Shown: positions 3,841-31,282 of the stretch, piece after piece
Layout: each line of letters starts with the position of its first letter
Numbering within the stretch: the stretch's first letter is position 1
Virus record (IMG/VR): IMGVR_UViG_3300043464_000798
Coordinates: 1-31,282 of that record
Source of the DNA: a virus
DNA: 31,282 nt
Strand: one strand, 5' to 3'
The notes under the pieces: model-generated
Told to the model about the DNA's origin: nothing
Databases searched by the model: none
What the model saw: the letters and a program-made list of their open reading frames with translations, nothing else
Made by a program: the position numbers and the translations under genes

Positions 3841-4098
3841 ATGAGTACAACATTCGGAATACCAAAAGAGCCTATTGATATAGAGCTAGGAGATGCAGAT
3901 GGAATATTTTACTACATCAACCCAGATATATTTGAGAAAGTATTTTTTAGAACTATGAACAATAGTAGGTGGCTAAATGATTTAGCTAAATTTTTGCCTA
4001 ATGAAACAAAAGTATATGCATTAGATAACACTCAGCAGGGAGTATATACAATCTCAGATATTAAACAACTAATGAAAGATGCCGAAAGTAACGATTGA
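3841..4098 (+). CDS. Small protein of unknown function
   Basis: The 85-residue protein starts MSTTFGIPKEPIDIEL at ATG 3841, one base after the previous stop. An in-frame ATG at 3763 would overlap the previous gene by 77 nt and is less likely. It is acidic, with a helical C-terminus (TISDIKQLMKDAE). No domain recognised. It overlaps the next gene by 20 nt. Confidence 0.65.
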   Translation: MSTTFGIPKEPIDIELGDADGIFYYINPDIFEKVFFRTMNNSRWLNDLAKFLPNETKVYALDNTQQGVYTISDIKQLMKDAESND

Positions 4099-4300
4099 AT
4101 TTAACACTATTGAAGAGCAGCATGAACTAGAGTTATGTATTAATGCTAGTAAATGGTATAGTATAGTCTGGGATTATAGCCAGTATTTACGCAATAGATT
4201 AAAGCATGAAGCATTATCAGATGACGCTTACAAAGCTATAGAAGAGGTTCGAGAAAAATTACATGAACTACTAAACGACGAAGGATTAAAACTTAATTAA
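4079..4300 (+). CDS. Conserved-looking small phage protein
   Basis: The 73-residue protein has a beta-like N-terminus (MPKVTIEFNTIEEQHELE) and a segment WDYSQYLRNRLKHE followed by helices. This WD-x-D/S-QxLRNxLK pattern is familiar from small phage proteins of unknown role next to replication genes; I recognise the look but not a function. Its start overlaps the preceding gene by 20 nt, implying coupling. Confidence 0.65.
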   Translation: MPKVTIEFNTIEEQHELELCINASKWYSIVWDYSQYLRNRLKHEALSDDAYKAIEEVREKLHELLNDEGLKLN

Positions 4301-6446: not shown

Positions 6447-6959
6447 ATGAAAAATTTATTCAAAGCATTAAGCGACTTCCAAAACGAAGTGCCAATTATT
6501 CACAAAGGAACGCAAGGTTATGGCTATTCATATAGTGACTTGCCTACTATCTTTCCTGTCATTAATCCGCTATTAAAAAAGCATGGGTTAGGATTTACCC
6601 AACTAGGTCAGGGAACGAGCCTTAAAACGCTTATATTCCACATTGAGAGCGGTGAAACTATTGAAAGTATATTTGATATACCTCAAGGCGTGCAATTATC
6701 TAAAATGAATGACTTTCAAGTTCTAGGTTCTGCAATAACTTATATGAGACGTTATGCGCTTAGTTCGGCTTTAGGAATCATAACTGACAAAGATACTGAC
6801 GCTGGAGGTGAGCAAATAAAAGCGGATATTGATAAAAGAATATTAGCGTGCAAAACTCAAGGCGACCTAACTAAGTTATTCAGTGAGGTCAACCCAAAAG
6901 ATGCAGGTACAATAGAGAAGTTCACTAAACGTAAATTAGAACTAAGTAAAAACAATTAA
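6447..6959 (+). CDS. erf: ERF-family single-strand annealing recombinase
   Basis: The 170-residue protein matches the ERF family: GYGYSYSDLPTIFPVINPLL at about 24-43, KKHGLGFTQ, a segment TLIFHIESGETIES, then GSAITYMRRYALSSALGI and a DTDAGG end motif. ERF proteins anneal complementary single strands during phage recombination and genome circularisation. The YqaJ-type exonuclease encoded at 7786-8532 is the expected partner, as in Red-type exonuclease/annealase pairs. The family's variable C-terminal region is short here. Confidence 0.9.
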   Translation: MKNLFKALSDFQNEVPIIHKGTQGYGYSYSDLPTIFPVINPLLKKHGLGFTQLGQGTSLKTLIFHIESGETIESIFDIPQGVQLSKMNDFQVLGSAITYMRRYALSSALGIITDKDTDAGGEQIKADIDKRILACKTQGDLTKLFSEVNPKDAGTIEKFTKRKLELSKNN

Positions 6960-8543: not shown

Positions 8544-8765
8544 ATGAAACATTTAAGACCATTACACTATTTACTATTGATAGGCTCACTTATGCTATCA
8601 AACCTTATTTTTATTTGCACTACTTTTGATGTAGCTCAGCAAAGAGACGAATTAAAAATATTCATAAAAGACCAAAAGGAAACCATAGACGGTCTCTATG
8701 AGATTTTAGAATACAAAGACAGTTTAATTAATAATCAATATATTTGCACAGAGTTTTGTGATTAA
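8544..8765 (+). CDS. Small N-terminally membrane-anchored protein
   Basis: The 73-residue protein has a basic start (MKHLRP), a hydrophobic segment at about 8-26 (HYLLLIGSLMLSNLIFIC), then a charged helix able to form a coiled coil (AQQRDELKIFIKDQKETIDG). This layout fits an inner-membrane protein with an outward or spanin-like helix, but no lysis neighbours are seen. TTAATCAC directly abuts the ATG. A strong terminator follows. Confidence 0.65.
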   Translation: MKHLRPLHYLLLIGSLMLSNLIFICTTFDVAQQRDELKIFIKDQKETIDGLYEILEYKDSLINNQYICTEFCD

Positions 8766-8773
8766 TTCTCTTT

Positions 8774-8815
8774 GGAGGGTCGGCTGGGTGCAAAGCCTAG
8801 CGACCTTCTTTTTTT
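8774..8815 (+). terminator. Rho-independent terminator
   Basis: A long stem pairs 8774-8788 with 8796-8809, including GGTCG/CGACC and GCT-GGG/CCTAGC, with one bulged G at 8783 and a few G-U pairs. The loop is TGCAAAG and a T-tract follows. It lies 9 nt after the stop of the membrane-protein gene, closing the recombination operon. Confidence 0.85.
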
Positions 8816-8844: not shown

Positions 8845-9420
8845 ATGAACATAGACAAGTTAGAGAGATTTAGATACGTTTTAAGCCTTACAGATTGTAC
8901 GGAAGACCAAATAACAAGTCCTTCAAGAAGAAGGGAGATAGTTAATGTTAGGCAGATGCTAATGTACTTTTGCGTAAATGAATTGAGAATGGGGCTTAGG
9001 GAGACTGGCTCATTCATGGGAAACAAAGACCATAGCACAGTTATTCATGGTCGGGATAAGTTCATGCAAATATTATCACTGCCACATAAAGCCAACTATG
9101 AAGCGCAAAGGTACAAGTCAATTCTAAATAAATATCATGAAAAATATGGACAAATGCCTAAAAATCACTATATTTGTGCAGATAAAATACTAGATAAAAT
9201 GACTGCTGAGCTGGTAGAATTGAAGGCAAAACAAAATCAAACGCCGATTCATACGGTTGTAAACAATGCAAAAAAATCACAATTGGAAAAATATATCAAC
9301 TTAATAACAGACATCAAAAATGAATACGACAGACAAATGGATAAAGGAGCTACATATATTGGAACGACTGCAATCAATGTCCAATCCAAACTATATGGAC
9401 TACAAAATCAGAGCTGCTGA
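8845..9420 (+). CDS. Stand-alone DnaA domain-IV-like DNA-binding protein
   Basis: Residues about 24-75 follow the DnaA C-terminal DNA-binding domain: SRRREIVNVRQMLMYF, a helix, then the signature-like MGNKDHSTVIHGRDKF with DHSTV at 62-66. In DnaA this motif reads DHSTV and contacts the DnaA box. The AAA+ ATPase domain is absent. The 110-residue remainder is helical and basic. A phage protein that binds DnaA-box-like DNA without ATPase could act on host or phage origins (inference). Two TTAATCAC copies precede the start, and a terminator lies before those. Confidence 0.82.
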   Translation: MNIDKLERFRYVLSLTDCTEDQITSPSRRREIVNVRQMLMYFCVNELRMGLRETGSFMGNKDHSTVIHGRDKFMQILSLPHKANYEAQRYKSILNKYHEKYGQMPKNHYICADKILDKMTAELVELKAKQNQTPIHTVVNNAKKSQLEKYINLITDIKNEYDRQMDKGATYIGTTAINVQSKLYGLQNQSC

Positions 9421-23152: not shown

Positions 23153-24606
23153 GTATAACATTAGGAGGTTACACAGTAGAAACCAAAAAGACAGTAGGTG
23201 AATTACCAGCAGGCTCTGATAATATAATAGCAGAAACGCCATGCGAGGAGACTATTAGTTTAGCAACGGTGCAACCTAAATGGAAAAAGATACATGAATA
23301 TACTAGGACAATAGCTTCAACTGCTAAACCTTTGGGAGGTTGGGAAATTGTACCTACATTTAGAACGATTCCAGATGACGTATTTGCAGACGGATATGAC
23401 TATGAGGTGTCTTTTAATTTTACATATATAGGCTCAAGTCCTTCATTAAATGTTCAATTGCAAAGATTTTCATATACAGTTGGGGTCAATAATTGGTTTC
23501 AAAATGTGATAACTGGCACATCAATAAATATGAACGAATCCAATTGTGGAGGTAGTTATGCTAATACTGCGAGAGCATTAATAGTAAGTGCTGATGACGT
23601 AGTTCAATTTGGATTGCAGGTTACATTTTATATAAGACAATTGATACCAGCCAGTATAGAAATAGAACTTTGTGGCGGTGGCAACGTAATACATTTAACG
23701 GAATTAGAAGAGACTAGCGAAGTTATAAATGTATTTATAGGAAGTGGTGAAGACCCATTAAGCGAGAGCGTAAATTCGACTAAAAGAAATACTACATATG
23801 ACCCATACGATTTAGGAGCAGGTGAAATAGCTAAAATGCCTCAAACGTGTTTAGGTTATGGCGTTAATTATGTAGCCTCTCTATTCTCAAGTCCATATAC
23901 TTCACCTCTTGATAAAACATATTGGATAGCGTCAGGAGTTTATGAAGCTAAGATTAATATTCCAAAAGTACCGCCACAGTCCTTAGATTTCAAACTTTAT
24001 AACGGTGTTAGCTACATATTTAATGAAGATAGTGATGCTAATGGATTAGTAGACTGGACACCATTTACTTTAGGCGTGAGCGGTGTTAATACTTCACTAC
24101 AAATATGGGACGGAGGAATCCAAGAAACTTCAAGTGCAGAGCAATTTCTATACCTTAAATATGATTTAGCTTCTTATGATTGCCCATGCGACGAGTGCGG
24201 AGATAGTTGTGGTGGTATTACAATTATATTTCACCAAAGCTGCGGTAATGCCTATCCATTGAAGTTTAATTTAATGATTCAAGAAGGTAACTATACTATA
24301 GAAGGTGAAACATTCACTCAAGGCGGTGCTATAATAAGACCAGTTACTAAGGTGAAAGCTACATACGACTTAGTGCTTAGTGAGTATTCAGATGAGACAT
24401 ATTTGTTATTAATGGAATTGCTAGCAGATAATGTTTTGATAGAAGTAGTGGACAATATAGATACTTCAAATCCTACAACTGAATACTATATCGATACTGA
24501 TTCTTTGACTCCGACTTGGAATTTCAACTCTAAACTAGGTACGATAGTTATTCCTGTAATTAGAAAGGATACGATAAGAACTAGCCGACGAAATTGCTGC
24601 GGATAA
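23149..24606 (+). CDS. Tail protein candidate with cysteine cluster
   Basis: A 485-residue beta-rich protein. Around residues 345-365 it carries a cluster reading CPCDECGDSCGG, then a C-terminal domain (QGNAYPLKF-like strand, QEGNYTIEGETFTQGGAIIR) and an end RRNCCG. The cluster could bind metal or form disulfides in an extracellular virion part. It overlaps the preceding tail gene by 4 nt. Receptor binding or baseplate function is inferred from position. The downstream 560 nt hold no gene of usual size. Confidence 0.6.
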   Translation: MSITLGGYTVETKKTVGELPAGSDNIIAETPCEETISLATVQPKWKKIHEYTRTIASTAKPLGGWEIVPTFRTIPDDVFADGYDYEVSFNFTYIGSSPSLNVQLQRFSYTVGVNNWFQNVITGTSINMNESNCGGSYANTARALIVSADDVVQFGLQVTFYIRQLIPASIEIELCGGGNVIHLTELEETSEVINVFIGSGEDPLSESVNSTKRNTTYDPYDLGAGEIAKMPQTCLGYGVNYVASLFSSPYTSPLDKTYWIASGVYEAKINIPKVPPQSLDFKLYNGVSYIFNEDSDANGLVDWTPFTLGVSGVNTSLQIWDGGIQETSSAEQFLYLKYDLASYDCPCDECGDSCGGITIIFHQSCGNAYPLKFNLMIQEGNYTIEGETFTQGGAIIRPVTKVKATYDLVLSEYSDETYLLLMELLADNVLIEVVDNIDTSNPTTEYYIDTDSLTPTWNFNSKLGTIVIPVIRKDTIRTSRRNCCG

Positions 24607-24626
24607 AAAAATATTATTCAAATTAA

Positions 24627-24647
24627 AAAATAGTTTGTATATTTGCA
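24627..24647 (+). promoter_or_regulatory. Late promoter, -7 box TATATTTG (24638-24645)
   Basis: The -7 box sits in a 21-bp block (core AATAGTTTGTATATTTGCA) repeated exactly at 28566-28586. It lies just upstream of the candidate RNA at 24651-24760 and after the tail gene stop. Confidence 0.65.
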
Positions 24648-24650
24648 GTC

Positions 24651-24760
24651 ATATTGTACTTTGGTAGGTCCAGTATTAAGATATTCAGCGTTAAAATTTT
24701 AAAAGAATAAGACGCCCTAAGCCTTGCAGGACCTACCCTTTGTGCAAGGCTTTTTTCTTT
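24651..24760 (+). ncRNA. Candidate pseudoknotted small RNA ending in a terminator
   Basis: Helix A pairs 24663-24671 (GGTAGGTCC) with 24729-24737 (GGACCTACC), a perfect 9 bp. Helix B pairs 24719-24728 (AAGCCTTGCA) with 24743-24752, a perfect 10 bp. B's loop holds A's 3' strand, so the two cross. A minor helix GCGTT/GACGC lies between them. B is followed by TTTTCTTTT, giving a complete unit: promoter, pseudoknot, terminator, with no ORF. Helix A may instead act as an antiterminator. The topology resembles the RNA at 655-760. Family not recognised. Confidence 0.65.
24719..24760 (+). terminator. Rho-independent terminator of the small RNA
   Basis: A perfect 10-bp stem (24719-24728/24743-24752) with a 14-nt loop is followed by T6CT3. 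It forms the 3' end of the candidate RNA. Confidence 0.8.
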
Positions 24761-25087
24761 TATATCAGTATGGGTTGTATAGTCGAACCAATCAAAATCA
24801 GACTTAAATAGCTGAGTAAATTAAAATAAAAAGTAGTGTAAAACATTGATATAAGACTAGCAAATGTCCACTCCTGACAACTAGCAACTACAAACCGAAA
24901 GGGAAAAATCAATGAACGAATAGATGGTTAAAATCCATGCCACCTTTAAAGTGGAAGAGAGCGGAAGTGTTTACATTGCTTATTACTTGCCATAATAGAA
25001 ACTAACTATAATTATTCAGTCAGTGTCTAATTGTAGAGAGTAAAGGAGAAACTATGTTTAATTAAGATTAAGATTAAAAAAAATAAA
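24761..25087 (+). other. Gene-free stretch with hairpins and tiny ORFs
   Basis: No gene of usual size is seen on the + strand. A 9-bp hairpin pairs 25006-25014 with 25028-25036 (one G-U). Smaller ones are ATGG/CCAT, CCAC/GTGG and TGTC/GACA, each with a 7-nt loop. AGCAAATGT and ACATTGCT could close them. Tiny ORFs read MGCIVEPIKIRLK (24769-24810) and, at 24924-24995, a 23-residue peptide MVKIHATFKVEESGSVYIAY plus YLP. A structured RNA or gene remnant are both possible. Confidence 0.35.
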
Positions 25088-25116
25088 TTTGTATAAATAA
25101 AAATGCACTATATTTG
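25088..25116 (+). promoter_or_regulatory. Late promoter: TTTG, 17 nt, TATATTTG
   Basis: TTTG 25088-25091 and TATATTTG 25109-25116 have near-consensus spacing. It drives the probable major tail protein. GCAGTC follows the -7 box as at 24646. Confidence 0.8.
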
Positions 25117-25170: not shown

Positions 25171-25746
25171 ATGGCACTTTGCACAACTACTTGCGACGGT
25201 AAAACAATGGTCGCATACACAGAACCAGATTGCAATAACTTCTATGCACTCGGTAATTCAACTTCGGTAGCTTACATTCTATGTGAAGATACCAACGACC
25301 TATTAAAAGTAAACTATACAGCTTCAGGCGCATGGAATACAGCTTTAGCTGGCGTTGATTCATTCAAAGATTTGAACGTAATTGACAACGTATTAGTAGC
25401 ACTTCCAGAAGGTGAGAACTTGACTATTGAGAATCCAATGAAAAACGGTATTCCTAACTTAAAGACAGGCGAATCTCACACAGTAACAATCACTGACCCG
25501 AAAGTTAGCTCTGACAATCATGATTTCTATAACATGATAGACGGAAAAACTGCATGGGTGGTTATAGCTTACAATGACGGCAGAATGCAAATAAGTCCTA
25601 GACCTATGATGCTAATGGTTAAGTCTCCAGGCATTGAGTATGGAACTTCACAGAAATTCACAGTTGAAGCTCAAGTTAACTTCGATAGAAATGAGTATTG
25701 GTTAGTCTTTGACACTCAACCAGCAGGTATCTTTAAATTCCAATAG
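25171..25746 (+). CDS. Probable major tail (tube) protein
   Basis: The 191-residue protein starts MALCTTTCDGKTMVAYTEPD and ends with a beta pattern (EYWLVFDTQPAGIFKF). It has its own strong promoter and structured leader, and like the capsid gene shows more C-ending codons than its neighbours, which points to high expression. Its size fits a tail-tube subunit. It is placed after tail-tip genes and before the portal. Homology was not recognised, so another abundant virion protein (decoration, major tail) is possible. Confidence 0.6.
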   Translation: MALCTTTCDGKTMVAYTEPDCNNFYALGNSTSVAYILCEDTNDLLKVNYTASGAWNTALAGVDSFKDLNVIDNVLVALPEGENLTIENPMKNGIPNLKTGESHTVTITDPKVSSDNHDFYNMIDGKTAWVVIAYNDGRMQISPRPMMLMVKSPGIEYGTSQKFTVEAQVNFDRNEYWLVFDTQPAGIFKFQ

Positions 25747-28554: not shown

Positions 28555-28584
28555 TTTGCATTTTTAAAATAGTTTGTATATTTG
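28555..28584 (+). promoter_or_regulatory. Late promoter: TTTG, 18 nt, TATATTTG
   Basis: TTTG 28555-28558 and TATATTTG 28577-28584 drive the head genes. The 21-bp block 28566-28586 is identical to 24627-24647. Confidence 0.8.
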
Positions 28585-29943: not shown

Positions 29944-31098
29944 ATGGCATTAGTATTAAAAAATAGTCTTCAAGATAGACTATCAAGTGTGTTTCAAACA
30001 CAATCAGCATTAGGTGTTATCACCGCAAATCCTCAATTAGACGTTCCACTTTCAATAGCTATGAACGGTGAGGTAAATTCTTCAAGATTAGAAGGTAAAT
30101 TACTAGCAGAAAACGGTCAGAAAATGTCTGTTGAATTGATATGGAATTTGCCAGAGTGCGGAGCTGCCGTTACAGGTTGTCCCACTGATTATTGTGCTGA
30201 AGGTGCTTCACCTGCAACTCAAGATTCAGAGACTTACACAATCACTTGCGATAGCACCAACACTTATTCTAAGACAGTTACTTTCGAGTATGCTGACTTC
30301 AAAGCTATGACAGCTTTAATGGATACGCTTCCAGTATTGGACGCTCCATTATCTGAGACTACAGTTAGAGGTACTTCTATTGAAAGCAAATTGTTTGAAT
30401 TGATTTCTCTAGTTGACAAAGGTCATGAAGCTCGAATAGCTCAGTTCTTATTTGATTCAGTTCCTGCATCTACTTTCGGATTCTCTCCAAAAGAATTGGC
30501 TGACATTCCAAACAGAGCTACTGACAAGGGTAAGGCTGTTAAAACATTCGGTCAAGTATCTTCAACTGCATTCAATGAATTGTATAGCGAAGTTATTTAC
30601 TCTGCTCAAACTGCAAGATACGGAAGCAATCCAATCCTTATTGGTGGTTTCTTATTGAATCAGTATCAGCAATTAAATCAGGCTTCTTGTTGTGCATCTA
30701 CAGGATATGACTTGTCTTCAATCTTTGAAACTAATAGACTTCCGGTAATTAAATCTGACGCTTTAGCGAATGTATTCAATGCGGAATATTCTACTACTTC
30801 TTTGAAAAATATGCCTTGGTTCTTATCTTACGAAGCAGGTGCTGTACAAGTTGTAAACTATGCTCAATACAGAGGAATGTTTGAAGTATCAAATCCAATG
30901 TTCAGCAGAACTACAATCGTATCTCCTTTCACAGGTAGAGCAATGGACGTAGCATTCAGCTTAACTGCTTGCGGTACTAAAATCAATATGACTGTATCTG
31001 CAACAGAGGAGCTTTACACTAGACCAAATGCATTCTGCGAAAACGATTATGGATTCGGAGTGAATGGTATTCAGCAATTCGTAATCAAGAATTCATAG
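29944..31098 (+). CDS. Major capsid protein
   Basis: The 384-residue protein follows the scaffold and shows high-expression codon use (more ttc, aac and gct than neighbours). It starts MALVLKNSLQDRLSSVFQTQ, with a long helix region at about 115-155 (FEYADFKAMTALMDTLPVLD) and cysteine-containing loops (PECGAAVTGCPTDYCAEG; ASCCAS). Size is typical for an HK97-fold capsid of siphophages. Family identity was not verified; the call uses context, size and codon use. Confidence 0.8.
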   Translation: MALVLKNSLQDRLSSVFQTQSALGVITANPQLDVPLSIAMNGEVNSSRLEGKLLAENGQKMSVELIWNLPECGAAVTGCPTDYCAEGASPATQDSETYTITCDSTNTYSKTVTFEYADFKAMTALMDTLPVLDAPLSETTVRGTSIESKLFELISLVDKGHEARIAQFLFDSVPASTFGFSPKELADIPNRATDKGKAVKTFGQVSSTAFNELYSEVIYSAQTARYGSNPILIGGFLLNQYQQLNQASCCASTGYDLSSIFETNRLPVIKSDALANVFNAEYSTTSLKNMPWFLSYEAGAVQVVNYAQYRGMFEVSNPMFSRTTIVSPFTGRAMDVAFSLTACGTKINMTVSATEELYTRPNAFCENDYGFGVNGIQQFVIKNS

Positions 31099-31282
31099 TG
31101 AACAATTGCTTTAGTTATTCTTTTATAAAGTGTGGGACACCAGCGTCAGGGGAAATAACCCTTGACGCGGTGTTTAACACCCTTAGCAAACTAGATTTAT
31201 ATTCTATGTTTGACAATCCACAGGAGGCAATAGATAAGGCTACAGAGTTAGCATATAACTCAATGGTAAGTGCTTTGCTTAG
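31098..31282 (+). CDS. Partial gene after the capsid gene, truncated at the window end
   Basis: A frame opens with GTG 31098, overlapping the capsid TAG by one base, and stays open to the window end (at least 61 residues, MNNCFSYSFIKCGTPASGEI at the start, then helical NPQEAIDKATELAYNSMVSA). Head-completion or connector proteins are common at this place. No function recognised. The start is inferred from the stop/start overlap. Confidence 0.6.
   Translation, partial: MNNCFSYSFIKCGTPASGEITLDAVFNTLSKLDLYSMFDNPQEAIDKATELAYNSMVSALL
31137..31173 (+). terminator. Stem-loop after the capsid gene, weak terminator or attenuator
   Basis: 31137-31152 pairs with 31159-31173, 15 bp with one bulged A and one G-U, loop AAATAA. 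Only TTT follows, so termination would be partial. It lies 39 nt after the capsid stop, inside the next frame. Confidence 0.55.

Follow-up and report, generated by a model that had tools for sequence, protein, structure and literature searches.

Organization of the locus and architecture of the RNA

The 31,282 bases analysed here, referred to below as the window, make up one virus record. A 485-aa gene ends at position 24606 and a 191-aa gene starts at 25171, and between them lies an accessory cassette that begins with a candidate promoter and a small structured RNA, designated class B (Table 1). Two crossing helices can be read directly off the sequence, P1 with 9 and P2 with 10 perfect base pairs, and the 3′ strands are separated by CTTTG (L3, 24738–24742), exactly as described in the original prediction; L1 is 47 nt and L2 is 0 nt. 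The U-tract TTTTTTCTTTT lies 3′ of P2 and overlaps it. P2 is an intrinsic terminator whose 14-nt loop holds the 3′ strand of P1, a loop that exceeds the reach of a simple terminator scanner, and the stem followed by a U-tract was found in all relatives.

The window was scanned with a descriptor consisting of two crossing helices, an L2 of at most 3 nt and a T-tract. The class B RNA scored 49, and 60 dinucleotide-shuffled versions of the window, 1.88 Mb in all, yielded no match scoring 48 or more. The nested minimum free energy (MFE) of the RNA was −27.9 kcal/mol (z = −2.8).

Table 1. Features of the locus, related RNAs and class B relatives (window positions unless stated otherwise)
Feature	Position	Strand	Sequence or remark
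Candidate promoter	24628–24647	+	AAATAGTTTGTATATTTGCA, contains Bacteroidota −7 box TATATTTG; unchanged in every class B relative
Class B pseudoknot RNA	24651–24758	+	Predicted transcript with predicted ends
P1 5′ strand (a)	24663–24671	+	GGTAGGTCC
L1, 5′ part	24672–24690	+	AGUnnUAAAGAUAU-like motif
P2 5′ strand (b)	24719–24728	+	AAGCCTTGCA; intrinsic terminator stem
P1 3′ strand (a′)	24729–24737	+	GGACCTACC; within terminator loop
P2 3′ strand (b′)	24743–24752	+	TGCAAGGCTT; then U-tract
Accessory cassette	24607–25108	+	Class B RNA and about 300 nt of noncoding DNA
Downstream structured RNA domain	24832–24980	+	Same layout, different letters in G010 and G008
Sister pseudoknot RNA, class A	642–768 (655–760)		
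Class C crossing-helix terminator leader	L245 35960–36060		Tenacibaculum phage JQ
Class C crossing-helix terminator leader	L206 about 6640–6800	−	
Class C crossing-helix terminator leader	L046 3993–4120		Reverse complement
Class B relative G001 (3300044655_000992)			Helix letters GACGAGGTC/GACCTCGTC, identical to G003
Class B relative G003 (3300042330_000214)			Helix letters identical to G001
Class B relative G002 (3300027956_000326)			P1 GAGTAGGTC/GACCTACTC
Class B relative G010 (3300041016_000725)			P1 GGAGCGGTC/GACCGCTCC
Class B relative G008 (3300008105_000029)			P1 GGAGAGGTC/GACCTCTCC

Since the −7 box is located at 24638–24645, the transcript would run from about 24651 to about 24758. 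The 20-nt promoter sequence recurs exactly at 28567, ahead of a different gene of the window, and is present without change in 25 stretches of IMG/VR DNA. Bacteroidota −7 boxes of the form TANNTTTG are enriched in the window (71 versus 47.6 expected), and none is found on the plus strand between 24646 and 25083. No clear −33 box was seen upstream of the class B RNA, and it is the −7 box and the exact 20-nt repeat that point to a promoter here. The box and the terminator delimit a discrete stretch of about 105 nt, in agreement with the original prediction, and suggest that the class B RNA may be a self-contained small-RNA gene.

Both helices covary in a narrow, phage-borne family

Relatives were gathered from IMG/VR by scans with the neighbouring proteins and with the common 20-nt promoter. 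The result showed that the class B RNA occurs in five further contigs, representing four further distinct sequences, with an L2 of 0–1 nt and an L3 of 4–6 nt. The P2 stems vary among the relatives as strongly as P1. Across the five distinct sequences, 13 of the 18 pairs were changed on both sides and 98.9% of cells were paired, in an alignment whose helix columns were registered by hand with artificial spacers and with one bulged base removed in each of G002 and G010; none of 500 shuffles or slid registers came near the observed covariation. Both of the helices that had been predicted thus covary, and two crossing helices kept by compensatory change make up an H-type pseudoknot. The last four pairs of P1 (GGUC/GACC) are invariant, and G–U pairs occur in G008 and in the family of the RNA at 655–760. 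The AGUnnUAAAGAUAU-like motif in L1 is kept in G002, G010 and G008, is partly present in the window and is weak in G001 and G003. Taken together, these results confirm the class B observation of two crossing helices.

A search of 2.9 million viral contigs (IMG/VR) with the pattern of promoter plus P1 returned the five known contigs and two false matches, L218 and L219, which were rejected as members because they lie in coding DNA. The same descriptor gave zero matches in 395 genomes of the phylum and 399 genomes of the family of G026 (Muriicola, Bacteroidota). The exact P1 pattern was found in two IMG/VR contigs, both of them chance matches, and further matches to GGTCAGT..TAAAGATAT in the viral and genome collections, beyond the known members, were without a credible pseudoknot, many of them in apparent coding DNA. 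Blast of the class B RNA against named phages gave short weak matches only, none of which spanned the RNA. Class B is a narrow, phage-borne family. No Rfam match above the gathering threshold was obtained for the window, L009, L026, L033 or sub-regions, and at relaxed thresholds the window, three relatives and the cassettes matched two animal microRNA models only, far below the cut-offs; on this comparison the undescribed character suggested in the original prediction is supported.

Helix letters are replaced in blocks

When the window was compared with G001, identity was 96.9% in the 1500 nt upstream of the class B RNA and 98.4% in the 320 nt downstream, but only 82% within the RNA itself. 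The differences lie in the two helices and the neighbouring 5′ portion of L1; the remainder of L1 is identical. This contrast between the RNA and its flanks implies that the helix letters change as matched sets and faster than their surroundings, which may reflect recombination or selection for new pairing specificity. Helix blocks swapped within near-constant DNA would point to allele-specific pairing under selection, if recombination is not the cause, and they make RNA-based immunity or control of selfish elements directly testable.

The RNA lies in an accessory cassette with a second structured RNA

The cassette is missing between the 485-aa and 191-aa genes in G004, G005 and G007. In G010 it is flanked by the endolysin and DUF3310-type genes (names from reading of the ORFs), and in G008 it is found slightly farther downstream of the endolysin gene. 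The G010-type site is empty in G005 and in G004 holds an ORF with HNH-type homing endonuclease motifs, recognised by motif and not by Pfam. The class B RNA is accessory and part of a mobile cassette, which is present or absent at one conserved site and occupies two sites in all. A homing endonuclease cassette would combine such presence or absence with a nuclease gene, and an HNH gene stands beside the RNA in G002 alone, one of the six contigs.

No conserved ORF was found in the approximately 300 nt that come after the RNA in the window, G001, G003, G010 and G008; this stretch gave no Rfam match as a known RNA, and its folding z-score as a whole was not significant. Within it lies a second structured domain, so that the cassette carries two structured RNAs, of which class B is the first. 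The closing helix of the domain is AGUAGU/AUUGCU in the window and AGUARU/AUUGCU across two sequence clades, its inner helix is CAUUGAU/AUCAAUG in the window versus CGCAGA/UCUGUG in G010, and there are also two neighbouring hairpins whose letters are unrelated between the clades. These helices were compared by eye and are unscored, and the inner helix of the window is absent from the free MFE structure. The approximately 60 nt preceding the domain are near-identical in all five phages. In G002, the stretch between the class B RNA and the HNH gene (L214 8791–9111) is unrelated in sequence, folds strongly and more stably than shuffled versions (z = −2.9) and is followed by a gene for a 150-aa HNH protein (Pfam HNH E value 0.0015, below the cut-off). 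The G002 sequence also carries, at L214 8826, an 8-nt copy TAGGTCGG complementary to a′.

Because of the lack of a plus-strand TANNTTTG box between 24646 and 25083, the downstream material probably relies on read-through of P2; alternatively, it might use an unrecognised promoter or transcription through the upstream genes.

Class A and class C RNAs of similar topology

The original prediction had regarded the class B RNA as having the same topology as the RNA at 655–760, here class A, and had suggested that the two may define a single class. The crossing helices and the promoter type are indeed common to both. However, L2 is 25–30 nt in class A (about 25 nt in the window) versus 0–1 nt in class B (0 nt in the window), conserved loop sequence differs and no loop motif common to the two was found, and their settings are different, class B lying in a mobile cassette and class A at the start of the replication module. 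These comparisons suggest that class A is a separate family of similar topology and at most a putative homologue of class B.

Class A orthologues were identified in G003 (L202), G004 (L206), G005 (L208) and G010 (L216), and both class A helices covary (16 of 16 pairs). In these four orthologues, and not in the window, a third copy of a is located 2–3 nt before the ATG of the next gene. The genes that follow are different, all of them at the head of the replication module. A uORF considered in the class A orthologues is open in four phages, in differing frames and with no conserved peptide, and was rejected.

Crossing helices of yet another type, class C (GGTCTCAC/GTGAGACC), stand ahead of HNH-type or DUF723-like ORFs, assigned by motif, in G004 and L046; Tenacibaculum phage JQ has a version with different letters at 35967. 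Class C L3 contains a conserved ...CTCAATGAT... in JQ and G004. Two of the three class C leaders precede ORFs resembling homing endonucleases (NUMOD4/HNH-like and DUF723-like, by motif). Classes A, B and C have topology and promoter type in common, and a shared descent would be conjectural.

A possible attenuator acting at its own terminator

Our leading reading, which we hold tentatively, is that this structured phage RNA of about 105 nt leads a small mobile cassette from its promoter-proximal end and works as a conditional transcription terminator. P1 would close before the 3′ strand of P2 is transcribed, and P1 as antiterminator would compete with P2 as terminator. Since b and a′ directly adjoin, P1 and P2 would stack coaxially, leaving L3 to span the shallow groove of P1. 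If an ideal A-form helix is assumed, this span takes about 6 nt for 9 bp and about 4 nt for 7 bp, and class B has 4–6 nt. A full P1 and a full P2, with zero nucleotides between the helices and 4–6 nt across the 9-bp P1, would therefore strain each other. Folding of the growing transcript showed that P1 is the MFE structure of the prefix from 24735–24738 on, before b′ exists, and the full-length folds with P1 and with P2 are near equal (−27.9 versus −26.4, 1.5 kcal/mol apart). The geometry, the prefix folding and the near-equal energies together suggest competition between P1 and P2. Some transcripts would then terminate and yield a stable sRNA, others would read through into the downstream RNA or nuclease, and a binder of strand a or of the conserved L1 motif would shift the balance. 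The antiterminator raised in the original prediction is retained as the preferred mechanism, since complete P1 and complete P2 can hardly form at once and the conserved downstream material has no recognisable promoter of its own. What speaks against an attenuator is the presence of the HNH gene in only one of the six contigs. In addition, fraying of P1 to 6–7 bp could let both helices coexist in this model, giving an ordinary stable pseudoknot with complete termination.

Complete termination leads to the main rival of the attenuator, a free-standing, fully terminated sRNA whose 3′ end is locked or protected by the pseudoknot and whose 5′ end or L1 acts in trans on a host or phage RNA or protein. 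This reading, possible but rather doubtful, is consistent with the promoter box, the strong terminator and a conserved L1 motif that adjoins the conserved GGUC of P1, and pseudoknotted sRNAs such as RydC are known (PMC4337610). However, G001 shows the L1 motif only weakly, further copies of a outside the RNA in the same contigs did not exceed 7–8 nt, and the promoterless structured domain or HNH gene downstream would be left unexplained. A search of the same contigs for a trans target of a′ likewise gave no 9-nt match and only matches of 7–8 nt. Pairing between phages forms the core of another reading, in which a′ would bind a of another phage's transcript and the P1 alleles would set the specificity of immunity or incompatibility, as in P4 CI or P1/P7 c4 RNA. 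The replacement of P1 as a block between near-identical flanks argues for it, as do the class A orthologues, which in four phages hold a, a′ and, ahead of the following start codon, a third copy, like seqA, seqB (CI) and seqC of P4 (PMC4825925). Class B itself has no downstream copy of a of at least 7 nt within the cassette in five of the six contigs, with an 8-nt match in G002, and its place is that of an accessory element within a late or structural region, away from the replication genes, which makes this reading unlikely.

A combined scheme for Bacteroidota phages, still a shade more speculative than immunity and likewise unlikely, would be an RNA-led mobile cassette of a sort not yet described, a pseudoknot terminator with swappable helices plus a second structured RNA, with or without HNH, in which the P1 allele sets who represses whom and so provides an RNA-only superinfection or element immunity. 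That the inverted repeats act as DNA, as binding or cleavage sites of a cassette endonuclease or recombinase with incidental RNA structure, would fit a mobile cassette that is once linked to HNH. This is very improbable given the fixed order promoter–a–b–a′–b′–U-tract, the fixed spacings of 0–1 and 4–6 nt, and the G–U pairs in G008 and the sister family, which preserve RNA but not DNA pairing. The view from a single sequence, and nothing more, would allow that a terminator and an unrelated inverted repeat overlap by chance; this reading is refuted by the covariation in five sequences and the zero matches in 1.88 Mb of shuffles, and its probability is practically nil.

Comparison with known systems

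Early formation of a pseudoknot helix interferes with the terminator in pseudoknot riboswitches such as ZTP and preQ1-I. The attenuator proposed for class B would resemble them in this respect, whereas no conserved ligand pocket, metabolic gene or Rfam match was found for class B and its helices are hypervariable. Alleles of c4 RNA differ between P1 and P7. Like P4 CI and P1/P7 c4, class B is a small RNA of phage origin, on a leader transcript, whose complementary segments would decide termination and whose alleles differ between relatives, but it lacks the downstream target copy, and the loop of an intrinsic terminator, not a processed RNA, contains its 3′ strand. The covariance model of c4 antisense RNA (RF01695) gave no match in the Rfam scans of the window, L009, L026, L033 and sub-regions. 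The replication operon of P4 is controlled by pairing of CI RNA with seqA upstream and seqC downstream (PMC4825925), and the three-copy layout of the class A family ahead of replication genes may be compared with this immunity system, which it resembles on paper.

T4-like phages restrain freestanding homing endonucleases through terminators and RBS-hiding hairpins (PMC2988022). The leaders of mobE, segB and I-TevI are the nearest functional precedent for G002 with its HNH gene; in T4 these are plain hairpins, either hiding the RBS or situated inside the ORF, whereas class B is a covarying pseudoknot with its own candidate promoter and lacks HNH in most copies. RydC is likewise a short pseudoknotted sRNA, but is enterobacterial and Hfq-dependent (PMC4337610). 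HEARO or omega RNA of IscB gave no Rfam match, and the G002 nuclease is a 150-aa protein with an HNH domain only, in contrast to IscB with RuvC and HNH. Unlike the ToxI RNA of type III toxin–antitoxin systems, class B is a single copy with no tandem repeats in the sequence, and the window genes after it showed no convincing Pfam or PHROG family that would suggest a ToxN-like toxin.

On present evidence, class B represents a new RNA family and a variant form of leader-RNA control, and is not categorically new. To our knowledge, the structured RNAs of Bacteroidota phages are little known, and class B adds a family absent from Rfam, with strong covariation and a mechanistic prediction that sets an early helix against a terminator.

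Other structured elements

In the window at 8735–8815, another promoter box and, no more than about 70 nt after it, a strong hairpin with a U-tract precede a 191-aa ORF at 8845 and may mark a short leader RNA; a third pseudoknot considered at 8743–8809 was dropped because its pairing uses promoter letters. A long inverted repeat, GGACACCAGCGTCAGGG ... CCCTTGACGCGGTGTT, which is terminator- or structure-like, lies at 31130–31183 directly 3′ of a 384-aa ORF (29944–31098). In two phages (L033 4560–4690 and L229 about 4060–4180), inverted repeat units of the form ATAACG...GGCTTGGCG...CGCCAAACCCGTGTTAT occur after genes and possibly represent a dispersed repeat.
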